Shown here: positions 27,996 to 35,076 of the stretch, in pieces | How the letters are laid out: the number at the start of each line of letters is the position of its first letter | Position numbering within the stretch: the first letter of the stretch is position 1 | DNA from: Cryomorphaceae bacterium | GTDB lineage: Bacteria > Bacteroidota > Bacteroidia > Flavobacteriales > ECT2AJA-044 | Reading direction: 5' to 3' | DNA: 64,000 nucleotides | NCBI GenBank assembly: GCA_017798125.1 | Contig: CP059070.1 | Coordinates: 868,001-932,000 of the forward strand | The notes under the pieces: generated by a model | Database searches by the model: none | What the model was told of the DNA's origin: nothing | Seen by the model: only the letters and a program-made list of their open reading frames with translations | Translations under genes and position numbers: made by a program

Positions 27996-30464
27996 TTGAA
28001 GAATCTCTTCTTCTTGATGACTCTCGTGTGCAGTTTCGCGCTATCAGCGCAAACGGCAACCTCTGACTCAACAGTCGTCATTCCGAAAATCGAGCTTTCC
28101 CAAATCTCGAGTGCCCGCGTAGAACTGATCGAGTATTTCCGATCAGATGTTCAACCCCTGCTTCAGGATTCTTTGATGGATCAGCGAAGAGCAAACCTAG
28201 ACACGCTTCGGATGCGCATTGATTCTTTGAACGAGCTTACGGAAGATGTTCTGAGGAACGAGCAATTCTCAGGGACGCTAGATGGTCTAAAGCTTCGCTG
28301 GTCCGAGCTTCAAGGAAATTTGAGTCCCATTGTTTCAGAGCTTTCCTCTCGCAACAAGAGCTTAGAGGCGATCGAGAGTGAGCTCAAGCTATATAGGGAT
28401 GCTTGGTCCTTAATCAAAGAGGAATTGGACGCCGATGACGCCAAAGAAGAAGTATCCTCTCGAATAACTGTTACCCTCGGAAGAATAGACAGCGTATTTG
28501 AAGTGGTTGACTTTGAGTTTGAAGAAACACTGGAAGTCGAAAGCATTGCTACCGAGTTGATCCTGAAGATTCAAAGCAGCCAGTCGACCATTGAAGAGGC
28601 GAAATCGCGTCAACTTATTTCGCGCATCACGGAACGCGGGGATGGCATTTTCAATTGGGAGCGCGACAGCACGGATGATTCGAGCATTGAGCTCAATAAA
28701 TTGATCTGGCTGGCCCGCAGCGATGCCCGATTGTACCTCGAGCAAGAAAAGAATAAAACCCTGTGGTTTGTGCCGGTATTTGTGCTCTTTCTCGTGCTTT
28801 TCTATCGGATGAAAACCAATATGTCTTTCGACGATGAGGTGTATGCTGATCGCATTACGAAGAGCCTATTCAACCGACCTTGGCTTTCCGCCTTTTATTA
28901 TTCCTTACTGTCCATTTTACTCTTTTTGAGTAACCCTCCAGCCCTGATTAGTCTGGTGTTCTCGACGGTTCTATTGTTTGTTTTCTTATTGCTCTTCACC
29001 CAAAACATTCGCGACGGACAGCGCTGGATCATCATTGGATCCGTAGTCACGTACATCGTCTTTGAGTACGGTTTAATCAACACTGGGCCGCTAAGTCAAC
29101 GACTGTTTTTGCTCGTATTGAATTTAGTGTTGAGCTATGGACTGGTTCGGATATACCGGATGCGGCATGATTTTGATGGAATCAATGCCTGGTGGGTAAG
29201 GCTCCTGCTCGGCTTTACACCGATTCTGATTTTTGTGCAAGCGATAGCTTTCGTCACGAACTTAACGGGCTACCATATCTTCTCTCTGCTTTTGGTCGAT
29301 GGAACAGTAACCACGTTGATGGCTGCTGTCTTTATAGGCTTGACGTTCCAGTCCCTTTCGGTAGCGGTAAGGACGTGGTTCAATACCGGTATTCCCAAGT
29401 ATGCTCACCGTTGGATGCCCGAAGCTAGGCAGAAGGCCACACGTGGATTGACCCGCATTCTTCAAATTTTGTCCGTACTTCTCTTTGCTCAAATTGTGCT
29501 CAACGGGTTTTACATTTTTGATGCTTTGGGCATATGGTGGGCCGACTTTATCAAAACCGGAACCGACATTGGGGATTATACGGTCACCATCGGCGATGGG
29601 ATCAATTTCTTCAAGATTATTATTGTCACTTGGCTAACCGTTGGACCAGCCGTCCTATTCTTGAGGGAGGAGCTATTGACTCGCCTAGACTTGGAGCGAG
29701 GTGTGCCGATGGCGATAAGCTCAATGACGAGCTACATCTTGGTCACCTTTGGAATATTCTTGGCCTTGAGTCAACTCGGGCTCAATTTTGCTAATCTCGG
29801 TCTTTTGGCGGGTGCCCTTGGGGTTGGTATTGGTTTTGGTCTCCAATCCATCATCAATAACTTTTTGAGTGGCTTGATCCTTGTTTTCGAGCGGCCGATT
29901 ACGGAAGGAGATATTGTGAAGATTCAATTGGATGAAGGGGAAGTGATTCGAATTGGAATCCGGGCAACCACCTTGAGACTCTACGACGCCTCTGAATTGA
30001 TTGTGCCGAACAGCGACATTGTTTCCCAGAAGGTAATCAACTGGACTCTGGCCAACCGCCAAAGACGCTTGCGTTTTGAATTTGTGCTTCCAATCCAAGA
30101 CCTGGATCCTACTCGAGTGGTCTACCTTGTGGAGGACGCTATGAAGAACATCATCCAGAGCGCTGACCTTCCTGCGCCTGCTGTTTACTACGATGGAGTG
30201 GAAGACAACAAGGCGCGCTTCTACATTCACTTTTGGGTGGAGCGAGAGATACTCTTCACCAAGAATCAGGTCTACACGGACGTCTTCAACACCCTGCGCC
30301 TACACGGCATAGGTATGATTGTGCCTGAAGCGATTTCGCTCAAGCAGGTAGATGAACACGCTTTTCAGGAAGAAGCGGTTAAAGAGGCGCCCTCTGAAAA
30401 GCAGGAAGCCGAAACGAAAGGTGATGATGTTACTCCGGATCCGTCAGAGGAGAAACAGGAGTAA
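27996..30464 (+). CDS. MscS family mechanosensitive channel with periplasmic coiled-coil domain
   Basis: An 822-aa inner-membrane channel. No ATG fits upstream. A TTG at 27996 gives MKNLFFLMTLVCSFALSAQ, a proper signal peptide, whereas the first ATG (28017) loses the positive n-region. Residues ~20-250 are a charged, helical periplasmic domain as in MscK/MscM-type channels. About 8-10 membrane helices follow (255-600). The pore helix and MscS domain contain GLLAGALGVGIGFGLQSIIN, FERPITEGDIV and IVPNSDIVSQKVINW. The tail is acidic and Lys/Glu-rich (EAPSEKQEAETKGDD). It relieves hypo-osmotic stress. Its last 35 bp overlap the end of the convergent POT gene. Confidence 0.92.
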   Translation: MKNLFFLMTLVCSFALSAQTATSDSTVVIPKIELSQISSARVELIEYFRSDVQPLLQDSLMDQRRANLDTLRMRIDSLNELTEDVLRNEQFSGTLDGLKLRWSELQGNLSPIVSELSSRNKSLEAIESELKLYRDAWSLIKEELDADDAKEEVSSRITVTLGRIDSVFEVVDFEFEETLEVESIATELILKIQSSQSTIEEAKSRQLISRITERGDGIFNWERDSTDDSSIELNKLIWLARSDARLYLEQEKNKTLWFVPVFVLFLVLFYRMKTNMSFDDEVYADRITKSLFNRPWLSAFYYSLLSILLFLSNPPALISLVFSTVLLFVFLLLFTQNIRDGQRWIIIGSVVTYIVFEYGLINTGPLSQRLFLLVLNLVLSYGLVRIYRMRHDFDGINAWWVRLLLGFTPILIFVQAIAFVTNLTGYHIFSLLLVDGTVTTLMAAVFIGLTFQSLSVAVRTWFNTGIPKYAHRWMPEARQKATRGLTRILQILSVLLFAQIVLNGFYIFDALGIWWADFIKTGTDIGDYTVTIGDGINFFKIIIVTWLTVGPAVLFLREELLTRLDLERGVPMAISSMTSYILVTFGIFLALSQLGLNFANLGLLAGALGVGIGFGLQSIINNFLSGLILVFERPITEGDIVKIQLDEGEVIRIGIRATTLRLYDASELIVPNSDIVSQKVINWTLANRQRRLRFEFVLPIQDLDPTRVVYLVEDAMKNIIQSADLPAPAVYYDGVEDNKARFYIHFWVEREILFTKNQVYTDVFNTLRLHGIGMIVPEAISLKQVDEHAFQEEAVKEAPSEKQEAETKGDDVTPDPSEEKQE

Positions 30465-31788
30465 TGTCCTCCGCTCCATGGGCGAGGCCTTTGAGTCGTT
30501 TGACGAAAAGCACTAGGGTCAGACCAAAAAGCGCACAAAATCCAAAGACGCCAATGAAGATGGTCATTTCGCCAGCTTCTTGAGCCGCTTCGCCAACCAG
30601 CCCGGCAATCTTGTTTCCTACCCCGCTCACAAAGAAGTACGCACCCATCATAAAGCTGGCGTACTTAGCTGGAGCCAATTTTGTGATGTAGGAAAGGGCA
30701 ATAGGGGAGATGCTTAATTCCCCCACGACGTGCAGAAGGTAGGCCGCGAACATCCAATAGATGGAGGCTTTGCCATCAGCGGAACCAAGGGTTTCTTGTG
30801 CCGCTCCGGCAAGGAAGAGGAAGCCTAAACCCGTAATAATGGTTCCAATACCCATCTTGAAGAGGCTGCTCGATTCGCGACCCCATTTACGCCATTGGGT
30901 CCAGAAATAGGCCATAGGCGCTCCAATCAGAATGACATAAAAGGCGTGCAGGGCCTGCAAGAAGCTGGCGGGTACGGTGAAGCCGAACATAACACGGTCG
31001 ATTTTTTCTTTGGCGTAGAGGTTCATCAGCCCACCGGCTTGCTCGTAGGCACCCCAGAAGACTATAACGACGACAAAGGAGAGCAATAGCACCTTGAGGC
31101 GGTCCTTTTCGATTTTGGTGAGCGGCTGGGAGGATGGCGTACCATCGGCCCGTGAGGGCCTTTCAAAATCTCCGACCCCTTTCAGGTAACGCTGACCAAA
31201 TACGTAGACGATTTGTCCTATGGCCATACCAATTCCGGCAAGGCCGAAGCCGTAGTGCCAATTGATTACCTCGCCGACATAACCCACGAGGAGGGGAGCC
31301 GTGAAGGCACCGATGTTGATTCCGATGTAAAAGATGGTGAAGCCGGCATCGCGCCGAGCATCGCCTCGACGGTACAGCCCTCCGACCATGGTACTGATGT
31401 TGGGCTTCAGGGCTCCAACCCCAAGGACGATGAAGACGAGACCAGTATAGAAGGCCCAGAGGGCATCAACGGCGAGAATGATATGTCCGATGCAGAGAAG
31501 GACCCCTCCGAGCATGACCGTTTTCTTTTGCCCGAGAAGGCGATCGGCGAGAAGGCCCCCAGGAACGGACATGACGTAGACCATCATGGTATACCACCCG
31601 TAGAGTTCAAGGGCTGAGGCATTTTCCCAGCCGAGACCGGCGTTGCTGTCCGTCGTTTTAGCCGTTAAATACAGGACGAGGATCGCCCGCATTCCGTAGT
31701 AGGAGAAGCGCTCCCAGAGTTCTGTAAAGAAAAGGACATATAGGCCTGCGGGGTGGCCCATGATCATTTTTTGTTGGCTTTGTTCCAT
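30430..31788 (-). CDS. POT/PTR family proton-dependent oligopeptide transporter
   Basis: A 452-aa inner-membrane peptide symporter with 12-14 helices. The start at 31788 gives MEQSQQKMIMGHPAGLYVLF; the 62 codons upstream lack coding character. The family markers are FFTELWERFSYYGMRAILVL in helix 1 (the ExxERFxYY motif), LLADRLLGQKKTVM, GVGALKPNISTMVGGLY and FTIFYIGINIGAFTAP. Di- and tripeptide uptake is the usual function and complements the secreted proteases upstream. A dispersed hairpin (31143-31160) lies in the central loop codons. The region between this start and kynA (31789-31873) shows no clear promoter motif. Confidence 0.93.
   Translation of the reverse strand: MEQSQQKMIMGHPAGLYVLFFTELWERFSYYGMRAILVLYLTAKTTDSNAGLGWENASALELYGWYTMMVYVMSVPGGLLADRLLGQKKTVMLGGVLLCIGHIILAVDALWAFYTGLVFIVLGVGALKPNISTMVGGLYRRGDARRDAGFTIFYIGINIGAFTAPLLVGYVGEVINWHYGFGLAGIGMAIGQIVYVFGQRYLKGVGDFERPSRADGTPSSQPLTKIEKDRLKVLLLSFVVVIVFWGAYEQAGGLMNLYAKEKIDRVMFGFTVPASFLQALHAFYVILIGAPMAYFWTQWRKWGRESSSLFKMGIGTIITGLGFLFLAGAAQETLGSADGKASIYWMFAAYLLHVVGELSISPIALSYITKLAPAKYASFMMGAYFFVSGVGNKIAGLVGEAAQEAGEMTIFIGVFGFCALFGLTLVLFVKRLKGLAHGAEDITPVSPLTDPE
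31143..31160 (+). repeat. Dispersed hairpin copy G (CATC-GGCCC-GTGA-GGGCC)
   Basis: Perfect stem with a GTGA loop in the POT transporter gene, antisense to it (coding RPSRADG). Confidence 0.75.
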
Positions 31789-31873: not shown

Positions 31874-32818
31874 ATGAATCGCGAACAACTGCTTGAGGCC
31901 ATCGATGAAAAATATCGAGCCATTGGCCAGAATCCAGACGTACATCTCAGCGGGCTTTTGCACGCAAAGCCCATGACCTATTGGGATTACATTCAGGTTG
32001 ATGCTCTGTTGGGTTTGCAAACACAACGGACTCAGCTTCCCGATGAAATGATCTTCATTGTATATCATCAAATCAATGAGCTCTTGTTCAAAATGGTGCT
32101 CTGGGAGATTGAGCAAATTGCACGTGAAGAGGATATTGCCGCGGAGAAATTTGCCATGCACGTGGACCGAATCAGCCGATATTTCGATATGCTGACCGAG
32201 AGTTTTTCAATCATGGGCGATGGCATGGAGCGCGAGCAATACATGAAGTTCCGGGACACCTTGACTCCCGCCAGTGGCTTCCAAAGTGCTCAATACCGCA
32301 AAATCGAATTTGCCAGTACCGACCTGATCAATCTGATCGATGCTCGATTCCGAGACACCATTGATCGGAACACTCCCTTTGAGCACGCCTACGAACATTT
32401 GTACTGGCAAGCTGCGGGAAAGAACTTTGATACAGGAGATAAAACGACATTGCTCGCCAACTTCGAAAAGAAGTACATGGAGGAGTTCATCACCTTCATG
32501 AAGGAATACAACAAGTCCAATTTGCAGCTCGTTTATTTGCGCTTGCCAGAAGCACAAAGAAACGATGCGCGATTGATCAATGCGCTGCGCCATTATGACC
32601 ATACGGTAAACGTAAAATGGGTCATGAGCCACTTGAATGCCGCGCGGAAATATTTGGGAGGTGCCGAAGCCACAGGCGGCTCTGAATGGCAGCGTTACAT
32701 GCATCCCAAATTCCAAAAACGAGTCTTTTTTCCCAATCTTTGGACAGAAAGCGAGCTAGAGACCTGGGGAGCGAACAATCTTGAAGGACATTTGTCGTGG
32801 GAAGAAGCGACCGCCTAA
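31874..32818 (+). CDS. kynA: Tryptophan 2,3-dioxygenase
   Basis: A 314-aa cytoplasmic heme enzyme that opens the indole ring of tryptophan to N-formylkynurenine, the first step of the kynurenine pathway. The conserved segments are present: FIVYHQINELLFKMVLWEIE with the active-site His, LTPASGFQSAQYRKIEFAS, and the C-terminal heme and substrate region ATGGSEWQRYMHPKFQKRVF then FFPNLW. Length and motifs match the Bacteroidota branch, in which the canonical GTGGS reads ATGGS. The BLUF gene follows after 10 bp and is probably cotranscribed. Other kynurenine genes are not adjacent, though a 2-aminomuconate-deaminase-like RidA gene lies at 56335. Confidence 0.95.
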   Translation: MNREQLLEAIDEKYRAIGQNPDVHLSGLLHAKPMTYWDYIQVDALLGLQTQRTQLPDEMIFIVYHQINELLFKMVLWEIEQIAREEDIAAEKFAMHVDRISRYFDMLTESFSIMGDGMEREQYMKFRDTLTPASGFQSAQYRKIEFASTDLINLIDARFRDTIDRNTPFEHAYEHLYWQAAGKNFDTGDKTTLLANFEKKYMEEFITFMKEYNKSNLQLVYLRLPEAQRNDARLINALRHYDHTVNVKWVMSHLNAARKYLGGAEATGGSEWQRYMHPKFQKRVFFPNLWTESELETWGANNLEGHLSWEEATA

Positions 32819-32828
32819 AACAACACGA

Positions 32829-33242
32829 ATGAAATCGATTATATACCTGAGCGAGGAGTCTATGGACTTCAATGAAGAGGAGCTCAAAGAATTATCCAGT
32901 TCGTCTGAACAGCGAAACAAAGACCGGGGGATTACCGGCTTCATGAGCTACAAGAACGGCATCTTTGTTCAGTTTCTTCAAGGTCCAGATAGTGCTGTAG
33001 ATCAGTTGTTTAACACCATAAATAAGGACGAAAGACACTCTGTCAAAAAGAGCTTGGAACTCCCTTTTGATGAGGAGCTGTTCCCTGCCTGGGGGATGAG
33101 ATATTACGGTCATGCCCAATTGGGGCCTACTCGATTTGAAGATATTCTGGAGTTGCTTTTGTCTCGTTTGTCGACCACTTTGAGCGAGGCTCAAGTGGCC
33201 AAATTGGTTGCTTCAAACATAGAACGCATCGCATCAAATTAG
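32829..33242 (+). CDS. BLUF-domain blue-light photoreceptor
   Basis: A 137-aa stand-alone flavin photoreceptor. The start at 32829 (MKSIIYLSEESMDFNEEELK) puts the flavin-binding residues at Tyr6, Asn30 and Gln48. The spacings of 24 and 42 residues are exactly those of AppA Tyr21, Asn45 and Gln63. The Trp/Met pair of the signalling strand is W88/M90 (PAWGMRYYG). The GITGFMSYKNGIFVQFLQG block is typical. The last ~40 residues form a helical cap (LLLSRLSTTLSEAQVAKLVA) and there is no output domain, so it must signal by protein contact. It lies between kynA and an exported VOC gene; its partner is unknown. Confidence 0.93.
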   Translation: MKSIIYLSEESMDFNEEELKELSSSSEQRNKDRGITGFMSYKNGIFVQFLQGPDSAVDQLFNTINKDERHSVKKSLELPFDEELFPAWGMRYYGHAQLGPTRFEDILELLLSRLSTTLSEAQVAKLVASNIERIASN

Positions 33243-33296
33243 GAAAAGCTCCTTTTTGGTAAGATATTTGCTGCTAGAAGGTTAGGTTTTTTTAAC

Positions 33297-33309
33297 TTAG
33301 CCTAGATTA
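33297..33309 (+). promoter_or_regulatory. Shared 13-mer TTAGCCTAGATTA upstream of the VOC gene
   Basis: It ends 12 bp before the VOC start codon. A 12/13 match in opposite orientation (TTAACCTAGATTA) lies upstream of the YceI gene at 34417-34429. It is a candidate common regulatory site. Confidence 0.3.
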
Positions 33310-33321
33310 CAAGTCACGGTC

Positions 33322-34230
33322 ATGAAACAACCGATCCGATTTTTCGGAGGACTTGTCGTTGGAATCCTCCTTTTCGCGAGCTGTGCTCGTCCATCGACAT
33401 TTCCTGCTCTAGAAGCAGAAGATCAAGAAGTGTATCATCACGGATCGATCATCTGGCGAGAGCTGATTGTACATGACGGCCAGCAAGTCATTCCTTTTTA
33501 TCAATCTGTTTTTGGATGGACCATTGAGCAATCGTTCGATGGTGATAACGACTATTACCTCGTCAAGAAAGGCAACAAGCCAATAGCGGGTATCTGGGCT
33601 ATTGGACAAAAGGATGCGGGTTCAGGAGGAGAGTGGATTCCATTTATCTCGGTTGAGAATGTATCTGCATCAGCAGATCGACTTCGCATTGTTGGAGGTT
33701 CTACCCTCGGTGAGACCTTCGATATGAAAGGAAGAGGAAAGGCGGCCATTGTCCGTGATCCTCAAGAAGCCATGTTCGGAATCATTCGTACGGACTATGG
33801 TGATCCTGAGCCACAAGTTGGTATAGGGGAATTTGTTTGGGCTGAACTTTGGGCAGAAGACCCATCAGCCGTTTCGCGATTTTATTCAGGTTTGGGTTAT
33901 GAAATGACGGCCAAGAGCGAAGGATTGAATCCTTACTACTTGCTTCAAAACAAAGGCGAGCGTGTCGGCGGAGCCATCAAGAACCCAATGCTTGAAACGC
34001 GTTCTTTTTGGGTTTCCTATATTAGTGTCGATAACGTGGAAGCTGCTGTAGAGCGAGTGAAGGCTTCTGGAGGGACGGTCTACTTAGAACCGACTATAGA
34101 TTTCCGCGAAGGTAGAACGGCCATTTGTGCCGATCCTTCGGGAGCGCCATTCCTTCTTCAGCAGGGTCCCGTGAGCCTAAAGACAACCGACACATGGAAC
34201 CGACGACAAGCAGCGTGCGAGGACTGTTAA
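33322..34230 (+). CDS. Exported lipoprotein with two VOC (glyoxalase-like) domains
   Basis: A 302-aa protein. The N-terminus MKQPIRFFGGLVVGILLFAS is followed by a lipobox Cys (FASCA), so it is a lipoprotein. Two tandem vicinal-oxygen-chelate domains follow. The first (~45-155) has FYQSVFGWTIEQ, GWMP-like GGEWIPFISVENV and a closing RDPQEAMFGI. The second (~165-285) has EFVWAELWAEDP, FYSGLGYEM, SFWVSYISVDNVEAAVE and DPSGAPFLL. The pair resembles bacterial VOC proteins of unknown substrate often labelled glyoxalase/bleomycin resistance. Extracytoplasmic anchoring is uncommon for the superfamily. It lies 80 bp after the BLUF gene and overlaps a small lipoprotein gene. Confidence 0.85.
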   Translation: MKQPIRFFGGLVVGILLFASCARPSTFPALEAEDQEVYHHGSIIWRELIVHDGQQVIPFYQSVFGWTIEQSFDGDNDYYLVKKGNKPIAGIWAIGQKDAGSGGEWIPFISVENVSASADRLRIVGGSTLGETFDMKGRGKAAIVRDPQEAMFGIIRTDYGDPEPQVGIGEFVWAELWAEDPSAVSRFYSGLGYEMTAKSEGLNPYYLLQNKGERVGGAIKNPMLETRSFWVSYISVDNVEAAVERVKASGGTVYLEPTIDFREGRTAICADPSGAPFLLQQGPVSLKTTDTWNRRQAACEDC

Positions 34231-34388
34231 TCGCACTACTGACTTCCTGGGTACTCTTAACCGTTACGGCGTGCACCTCCACCAAGCAAGTGGAGCAGTC
34301 GGGTATTAGCCAGCATTGTGGCCCCTTGACCAAATCTTCTCGCGCTCAAAGCAGCCTGCTTCGTCAAGCCGGGCGACTTCATCGTTGA
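34194..34388 (+). CDS. Small lipoprotein overlapping the end of the VOC gene
   Basis: A 64-aa reading frame starting inside the VOC gene (37-bp overlap, different frame). It begins MEPTTSSVRGLLIALLTSWV and continues LLTVTAC, a well-formed lipoprotein signal with the Cys at about residue 28. The mature part is short and basic (KSSRAQSSLLRQAGRLHR). The overlap and the well-formed signal argue for a real gene, but homologues cannot be checked here. Confidence 0.5.
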   Translation: MEPTTSSVRGLLIALLTSWVLLTVTACTSTKQVEQSGISQHCGPLTKSSRAQSSLLRQAGRLHR

Positions 34389-34416
34389 GACCACGAATTC
34401 GTCTTGCGTGTTTTCT

Positions 34417-34429
34417 TAATCTAGGTTAA
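34417..34429 (-). promoter_or_regulatory. Inverted copy of the shared 13-mer (TTAACCTAGATTA) upstream of the YceI gene
   Basis: It matches the site at 33297-33309 in 12 of 13 positions. It directly abuts a 18-bp palindrome at 34430-34447. Confidence 0.3.
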
Positions 34430-34447
34430 TAGATGTAGGTACATCTA
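34430..34447. promoter_or_regulatory. Palindrome TAGATGTA-GG-TACATCTA, candidate operator of the YceI gene
   Basis: The 8-bp arms are exactly complementary around GG. It ends 5 bp before a near-consensus -7 box (CATCTTTG, 34453-34460), the position from which a regulator could activate or block the promoter of the gene at 34486. Confidence 0.45.
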
Positions 34448-34485
34448 ATTCTCATCTTTGCTGTGTAATCCTAAAAAATTTGACA

Positions 34486-35025
34486 ATGGAAGCAACAGCA
34501 ACAAAAACTACTTGGGCGGTAGACGCCATGCACAGCGAGGTTCAATTCAAAGTGAAGCATTTGGTTATTTCAACCGTGACGGGAACCTTCAACAACTTCA
34601 ACGGATCCTTTGAATCAGACGGCGATGACTTCGACGGAGCAGCCGTGGCGTTTGACGTGGATGTAAACTCTATTGATACCAATCAATCGGATCGGGACAA
34701 TCATCTCCGTTCTGCGGATTTCTTCAACGTAGAGCAATTCCCGAAGATGACCTTCGAAGGAACGCTAAACAATAAAGGAGGGGACAGCTTCACCTTGACT
34801 GGTCCTTTGACGATCAAAGACACTACAAAGGAAGTTTCTCTCACTGTGGAATACGGCGGAACCATGGTCGATGGATACGGACAGACCAAAGTAGGTTTTG
34901 AAGTGACTGGAAAAATCAACCGCAAAGAATTTGGTTTGACTTGGAGTCAAGTGACCGAGGCCGGCGGAGTCGTTGTTGGAGATGAAGTGAAGCTGATCTT
35001 CAACGTACAATTCGCTCGCCAGTAA
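34486..35025 (+). CDS. YceI family protein (lipocalin-like isoprenoid binder)
   Basis: A 179-aa protein with the YceI fold: WAVDAMHSEVQFKVKHLVIS, GTFNNFNGSF, DFDGAAVAFDVDVNSIDTNQ, RDNHLRSADFFNVEQFPKMT, LTIKDTTKEVSLTVEYGG and GDEVKLIFNVQ. Family members form a beta-barrel pocket that binds polyisoprenoid lipids such as ubiquinone precursors. Most proteobacterial members carry a signal peptide; this one does not, so a cytoplasmic location is likely. It is monocistronic, with a candidate operator upstream and a strong terminator downstream. Proximity to the BLUF sensor and a shared upstream element suggest, by inference only, stress or light-linked regulation. Confidence 0.93.
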   Translation: MEATATKTTWAVDAMHSEVQFKVKHLVISTVTGTFNNFNGSFESDGDDFDGAAVAFDVDVNSIDTNQSDRDNHLRSADFFNVEQFPKMTFEGTLNNKGGDSFTLTGPLTIKDTTKEVSLTVEYGGTMVDGYGQTKVGFEVTGKINRKEFGLTWSQVTEAGGVVVGDEVKLIFNVQFARQ

Positions 35026-35049
35026 GCAGCGAACCCTCAAAAAAGTGGA

Positions 35050-35076
35050 AAGCCGAATCGCGAGATTCGGCTTTTT
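35050..35076 (+). terminator. Rho-independent terminator after the YceI gene
   Basis: AAGCCGAATC-GCGA-GATTCGGCTT is a perfect 10-bp stem ending in six T. The reverse reading also carries an A/T-rich tail, so it may serve the convergent Bat operon as well. Confidence 0.92.

Follow-up and report, generated by a model that had tools for sequence, protein, structure and literature searches.

The window analyzed here is a stretch of 64 000 nucleotides from the genome of a Cryomorphaceae bacterium (GenBank assembly GCA_017798125.1; positions 868001–932000 of a single 2.84-Mb contig, CP059070.1), the order-level relatives of which appear to resemble Flavobacteriales. The locus in question carries, in this order on the plus strand, the genes for tryptophan 2,3-dioxygenase (kynA), a short BLUF photoreceptor, a VOC lipoprotein, a small lipoprotein-like open reading frame (ORF) and a YceI protein (Table 1). 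This gene set and order had been proposed by a sequence-only reading of the same DNA, and both are borne out by the ORFs and by Pfam searches. That reading also suggested that the genes could form one light-linked module of stress response or tryptophan catabolism; this suggestion finds no support because kynA adjoins the BLUF gene only in two congeners and the yceI promoter belongs, in relatives, to a group of genes that shows no sign of light control. The explanation that we favor, with somewhat better than even confidence, is that the locus consists of two unrelated units, a genus-restricted kynA-BLUF operon and, beside it, an independent, probably stress-controlled yceI gene.

Table 1. Genes and sequence elements of the kynA-BLUF-yceI locus (window coordinates)
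Feature	Positions	Strand	Support or remark
POT-family oligopeptide:H+ symporter, divergent from kynA	30430..31788	-	Pfam PTR2; TIGR00924 above cut-off
kynA, tryptophan 2,3-dioxygenase (314 aa)	31874..32818	+	Pfam PF03301 (Trp_dioxygenase), 2.2e-30
Short BLUF photoreceptor (137 aa), core 1-92 and C-terminal helices	32829 (ATG)..33242	+	Pfam PF04940, 8.3e-22
CTTAGCCTAGATTACA, VOC-side copy of the 13-mer	33296..33311	+	10 nt before the VOC start codon; not conserved in the congener
VOC (glyoxalase-fold) lipoprotein, lipobox close to the N-terminus as read from the sequence	33322..34230	+	Pfam Glyoxalase, 8.7e-14, 2 stretches
Small lipoprotein-like ORF (64 aa), overlapping the 3' end of the VOC gene, uncertain whether coding	34194..34388	+	ORF only
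CTTAATCTAGGTTAAT, yceI promoter operator of the activator type, including the 13-mer	34415..34430	+	Found at a constant spacing before yceI in four families
ATGTAGGTACAT, dyad in the spacer (ATGT-N4-ACAT), candidate repressor site	34433..34444	.	Recurrence in yceI upstream regions
CATCTTTG, -7 box (TANNTTTG type with one mismatch) of the yceI promoter, following the operator at 22 nt	34453..34460	+	
yceI, signal peptide not seen	34486 (ATG)..35025	+	Pfam YceI, 3.4e-48
Terminator-like stem-loop 3' of yceI, between convergent genes	35049..35074	-	Stem-loop scan

The BLUF protein matches its Pfam family over nearly the entire profile (positions 1–91 of 92), and its matches in the Protein Data Bank (PDB) are BlrB, Tll0078/TePixD, Slr1694 and AppA. 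The AlphaFold2 model has a mean predicted local distance difference test score of 81, with blocks of 83–96 for residues 1–90 and 49–68 beyond, and the C-terminal helices (residues 101–117, 120–127 and 131–136) are predicted at low confidence. Foldseek aligns this model with chains of PixD, AppA, BlrB and the photoactivated cyclase, and the comparison with the AppA BLUF domain (2iyg_B) gives a root-mean-square deviation of 1.4 over 93 columns. Tyr6, Asn30 and Gln48 are invariant in an alignment of 28 sequences, and Trp88 and Met90 are present as well, the Met being kept and the Trp replaced by Arg in the other member of the genus (G001, hereafter the congener). The claim that all flavin-site residues are at AppA spacing stands nearly but not exactly: the Tyr-Asn-Gln spacings (24 and 18) equal those of AppA, but the Trp/Met pair is one residue nearer to Gln48 than in AppA. 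Both congeners have Gln instead of Glu51, a residue with a conservation of 90% or more in the 28-sequence alignment. Judging from these residues and from the modeled fold, the protein would bind flavin. The proposed lack of an output domain is confirmed, that is, no such domain is fused to this short protein, which has the architecture of the PixD/BlsA type. One scan of a contig collection for closer relatives of the BLUF protein produced no match and another produced only one distant alphaproteobacterial match; a plasmid collection contained none.

KynA passes the Pfam cut-off; it also aligns with positions 4–259 of the 264 positions of the NCBIfam profile trp_2_3_diox, but with a score of 117.1 bits that is below the equivalog cut-off of 390.7. 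Four residues with catalytic roles, His65, Arg127, His253 and Thr267, are invariant in all 30 aligned sequences, and the C-terminal tail of KynA in this genus exceeds that of the other 28 sequences in the alignment by a few residues. Elsewhere in the same genome, at position 1298427 onward, there is a kynureninase gene directly followed by a gene for an FAD monooxygenase; the latter had no NCBIfam match above the cut-off among the rows shown and is probably kynurenine 3-monooxygenase. Because these two genes are present in the genome, KynA probably serves the kynurenine route. The gap between kynA and the BLUF gene is 10 nt in the window and 3 nt in the congener, so that cotranscription of the two genes, as had been proposed, is likely. 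The nonsynonymous divergence (dN) between the congeners is 0.24 for the BLUF gene and 0.10 for kynA, while synonymous divergence (dS) is not computable in either case, the synonymous sites being saturated; both genes therefore seem to evolve under purifying selection.

In the congener, the gene order is kept and the fetched 16-kb block is entirely syntenic, with sequence identities of 87% for KynA, 68% for BLUF, 79% for the VOC protein and 81% for YceI. The comparison of gene order in other relatives, which had been recommended as a check on the proposed module, finds no conservation of the neighborhood outside the genus. Among 395 genomes of the order, 34 encode a BLUF protein and 226 encode KynA; the two genes are adjacent in 2 of the 34 BLUF-bearing genomes, both congeners, as judged by eye from the listed positions. 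Thirty of the other 32 BLUF genomes have kynA elsewhere, at the nearest about 23 kb off (G295), and two (G118 and G375) have none. Neither kynA nor a VOC gene was found within about 1.5 kb in any of the 58 other BLUF loci of the order and phylum, a set that includes some genes fetched twice, and no BLUF, VOC, YceI or peptide symporter gene was found within the same distance in any of 28 other kynA loci; in four larger kynA loci, no further window gene was seen. Likewise, eight other VOC loci contain none of the remaining window genes. One of the 58 BLUF loci (L139), in another family of the class, includes a YceI match of 35% over 71 aa, no more than about 1.5 kb away. In two of the larger kynA loci (L101 and L102), both from other genomes, kynA lies directly behind a gene resembling that for 4-hydroxyphenylpyruvate dioxygenase, in an aromatic amino-acid catabolism cluster.

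Short BLUF proteins act via separate partners, and these are seldom known; here, the tight coupling to a single enzyme gene names a single candidate. In the alternative that this coupling brings to mind, the BLUF protein controls KynA directly, with blue light causing the C-terminal helices to bind or release KynA, so that tryptophan breakdown and the supply of NAD follow light. The absence of an output domain, which calls for a partner, the close gene spacing in both congeners, the greater identity of the BLUF tail (34/43 residues) compared with the core (58/92) and the longer KynA tail in this genus are all compatible with such control. The tail-core difference, however, does not reach significance (Fisher p 0.075), the additional KynA residues are few and shared only in part by the congeners, and in the 30 other BLUF genomes of the order that have kynA, it is never beside the BLUF gene, so that we rate direct control of KynA as improbable. 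Its most specific form, in which the BLUF protein interacts directly with KynA in a light-dependent way, docking on the genus-specific KynA tail and gating the heme dioxygenase, is a long shot; if it were true, blue light would set the flux from tryptophan to NAD. A search of the literature for BLUF proteins in connection with tryptophan dioxygenase or kynurenine yielded nothing on the topic, by title or the start of the abstract.

At the opposite extreme, the BLUF gene could be a passenger without any light function in this genus, as might be suspected from the Glu51 replacement, the Arg in place of the Trp in one congener and the patchy distribution of BLUF across the order. This, too, is quite unlikely, given that the Tyr, Asn, Gln and Met are kept, that dN is well below the saturated dS, and that light appears to matter to this organism because its genome encodes photolyase-family proteins and a rhodopsin. 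These genes are found at 1650000–1677200 of the genome (L120 and L121), about 0.75 Mb from the window genes, in a region that contains three photolyase/cryptochrome-family genes, the rhodopsin gene and genes resembling crtI, crtB, idi and folE. Nothing was found that links this region of photolyase, rhodopsin and crt-like genes to the genes of the window.

In the reading of a single light-stress module, the BLUF protein would govern the VOC and yceI genes together through a 13-mer shared by their upstream regions. The two copies are indeed present, at 33297–33309 (minus strand) and 34417–34429 (plus strand), identical at 12 of the 13 positions and in inverted orientation, and the genome has no other exact match of TAATCTAGGYTAA; only the yceI copy, however, lies in a recurring promoter setting. 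Neither copy is kept exactly in the congener. At the VOC copy, there is no room for the layout with a -7 box described below, and it is because of this and of the lack of conservation that we consider it to be probably due to chance. The notion that the yceI copy is unconserved, given that the congener differs, is overturned by the comparison of 30 yceI upstream regions, for this copy only. A light regulon defined by the 13-mer was rejected, given that the exact copies occur only here, the control pattern is commoner and most of the loose matches are in ORFs: loci were available for 30 of the 46 listed matches, and among the 28 further loci (up to two mismatches), 20 matches are inside long ORFs. 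The crt/photolyase/rhodopsin region holds no site of this type except for one two-mismatch match (L027), inside an ORF. Thus, although the genes are adjacent, lie on the same strand and keep their order in the congener, a common light-stress module is highly improbable: besides the lack of a promoter layout at the VOC copy, genomes that lack this neighborhood also use the yceI element, and BLUF, kynA and VOC genes are present in none of the 48 other yceI or motif loci.

In the yceI upstream regions of distant relatives, the 13-mer element recurs as CTTAATCTAGGTTAAG, within a promoter layout that consists of CTTAA-N6-TTAAK, a spacer of 21–22 nt and a TANNTTTG-type -7 box and is found in four families (f1, f3, f6 and f8). 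If the layout is defined as a 16-mer that has at least 8 of the 10 half-site positions and is followed, at 21 or 22 nt, by a box of the TANNTTTG type in which no more than one mismatch is allowed, it is present in 16 of 30 yceI upstream regions (the window and the congener included), with a spacing of 22 nt in 13 and 21 nt in 3; these 30 loci belong to the top matches found in 196 genomes, and many come from one genus. By comparison, 200 mononucleotide shuffles, which preserve base composition only, gave a mean of 0.17 and a maximum of 2, and each of the other operator-box spacings between 10 and 35 nt occurs in 0 or 1 yceI upstream region. The promoter of the congener reads CTTAATCCAGTTCAAT, 22 nt, GAAATTTG. 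In the window, the spacer also contains the dyad ATGT-N4-ACAT, located 8 nt before the -7 box, and in four upstream regions of family f8 the dyad lies 6–7 nt before the box; altogether, the dyad is found at 6–8 nt in 5 of the 30 regions and in none of 300 shuffles, which again preserve base composition only. In the congener, one half of the dyad is changed to ACGT. The dyad is a candidate repressor site. The claim that yceI has an upstream regulatory element is thus supported by the recurring operator and -7 box.

When 16 genomes were searched for CTTAAYCTAGRTTAAG with up to one mismatch, there were 58 forward hits compared with 19 for the reversed control, with at least one hit in 13 of the 16 genomes; the congener and two others had none. 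Of the 20 sites without a mismatch, 12 lie before yceI and the other 8 before pirin-type genes; because 11 of the 16 genomes had been picked for the motif at their yceI, only the pirin sites count as independent. Sites with one mismatch precede another pirin-like gene (by likeness), a glyoxalase-fold protein gene and an alpha/beta hydrolase gene, but also occur elsewhere, for example before a thiolase-like gene (L220) and inside an ORF (L226). Pfam supports the glyoxalase-fold protein, the alpha/beta hydrolase and three pirins at motif sites; the names of the third pirin type, the crt genes, the hydroxyphenylpyruvate dioxygenase and the thiolase-like gene come from reading the sequence alone. 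In 36 of the 38 motif-gene rows, a -7 box lies 21–22 nt after the motif, and in 33 it is exactly TANNTTTG. At one of the motif loci (L213, 2832–5263), the genes for a pirin, a small ORF, OsmC and an FMN reductase are arranged between two CTTAATCTAGGTTAAG promoter copies, the block ending at yceI. No description of a promoter or operator core shared by yceI and pirins was found in the literature searched, which is not proof of absence.

Pirins together with a glyoxalase-fold enzyme and an alpha/beta hydrolase make up a combination characteristic of electrophile or oxidant stress and, because the promoter is associated with this set in relatives, yceI is probably controlled by stress, independently of light; no sign of light control was seen in the pirin/YceI/VOC/hydrolase group of the relatives. 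With regard to the regulator, 20 stretches around chosen motif sites were fetched, a subset of all sites, and in these, a Crp/Fnr-like ORF is present at 6 of the 20 loci (139 kb) compared with 0 of 62 control loci (258 kb), the model for the search having been built from 4 of the 6 loci later found; those loci are not independent. The three Crp/Fnr-like ORFs that were run against Pfam all match cNMP_binding. We infer that the pirin, YceI, glyoxalase-fold and hydrolase genes form an oxidant/electrophile stress group with an activator of the Crp/Fnr type. A regulator of another family, such as Rrf2 or MarR, could bind the yceI operator instead, as might be suggested by the near-palindromic operator and by the second dyad, which looks MarR-like. 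This is an unlikely possibility, albeit one to be taken seriously, considering that the center of the operator lies about 30 nt before the -7 box, the position of a class-II activator, that the N6 spacing of the half-sites is that of Crp, and that the Crp/Fnr-like genes are concentrated in the motif loci with the dependence noted above.

The VOC lipoprotein and YceI, which had been listed as the next genes after BLUF, are confirmed, with the best PDB matches to Rv0577 (2.5e-22) and TT1927b (2.1e-35), respectively, and VOC relatives (E<=0.001) are present in 9 of 246 genomes of the order, two of these being the congeners. The small lipoprotein ORF that had been listed with them is a weak candidate: it has no match in a Pfam search, its ATG start was read from the sequence, with the ORF listing starting at a TTG further up, and in the congener, the assembly of which contains broken ORFs, there is a stop codon at the lipobox Cys followed by a similar C-terminal half. 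The POT symporter gene is divergent from kynA in both congeners, being in the same place but split into two ORFs in the congener; this arrangement possibly reflects a shared control region and the uptake of tryptophan in peptides. The terminator-like stem-loop has the longest stem (11 pairs) in a scan that yielded 5 sites of this sort compared with 3.6 expected.

Under the two-unit explanation, kynA and the short BLUF gene would form a genus-restricted operon, as their spacing suggests. Blue light would change the hydrogen bonding at Tyr6 and Gln48, as is established for the family, and the signal may pass via the C-terminal helices to a separate protein partner, by analogy with PixD and BlsA. 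Cotranscription would probably give BLUF the expression level of kynA, and regulation of kynA by BLUF is not required; KynA would feed the kynurenine pathway, the kynureninase and probable kynurenine 3-monooxygenase genes of which are elsewhere in the genome. The yceI gene would have its own promoter, with CTTAA-N6-TTAAK at the class-II position relative to the TANNTTTG-type box, the bound activator most likely being a Crp/Fnr-family protein, and with the second dyad, ATGT-N4-ACAT, lying within the spacer of the same promoter. Several observations weigh against this explanation. On the side of kynA-BLUF, a single congener was compared, and its BLUF protein lacks the Trp; furthermore, because the whole 16-kb block is syntenic, the kept linkage says little about function. 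On the side of yceI, 14 of the 30 upstream regions are without a good operator, no site with up to one mismatch occurs in the congener, and in the genome analyzed, the operator (up to one mismatch) is found at yceI only, with no other member of the regulon identified there. In this genome, moreover, matches to the 13-mer at up to two mismatches are rarer than those to the reversed control (46 compared with 150 hits), and the Crp/Fnr assignment comes from gene proximity in related genomes, the window itself having no Crp/Fnr-like gene. YceI proteins are widespread and their function is unclear. A promoter that yceI shares with genes for pirins, a glyoxalase-fold enzyme and a hydrolase suggests a common signal.

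Compared with known systems, the window BLUF protein resembles PixD (Slr1694, Tll0078), BlrB and BlsA in having a single BLUF domain with C-terminal helices, no output domain and the Tyr/Asn/Gln site; it is about 22–31% alike to the PixD, AppA and BlrB chains in most Foldseek rows. According to a study of BlsA (PMC6695109), Tyr7, Gln51 and Trp92 of that protein are important, and light-regulated motility changes when the C-terminus is altered. Unlike PixD, BlrB and BlsA, the window protein has Gln in place of Glu51, a C-terminal sequence of its own and a position behind kynA.

The yceI promoter group can be compared with the MhqR and YodB quinone regulons of Bacillus, in which glyoxalase-fold dioxygenases and hydrolases are under one operator. 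The likeness is that genes for a glyoxalase-fold protein and a hydrolase share one operator; the differences are the activator-like site at a fixed distance from a Bacteroidota-type -7 box, the inclusion of pirin and yceI genes, and the Crp/Fnr-type neighbors in place of a MarR protein. The 16-bp near-palindrome with two 5-bp half-sites, the N6 spacing and the fixed, activator-like distance to the -7 box resemble class-II promoters of Crp/Fnr, whereas the half-site CTTAA differs from the consensus of Crp (TGTGA) and of Fnr (TTGAT). Taken together, the BLUF protein is a short photoreceptor of a known type in a genus-specific pair with kynA, and yceI is under a recurring promoter of the stress type.

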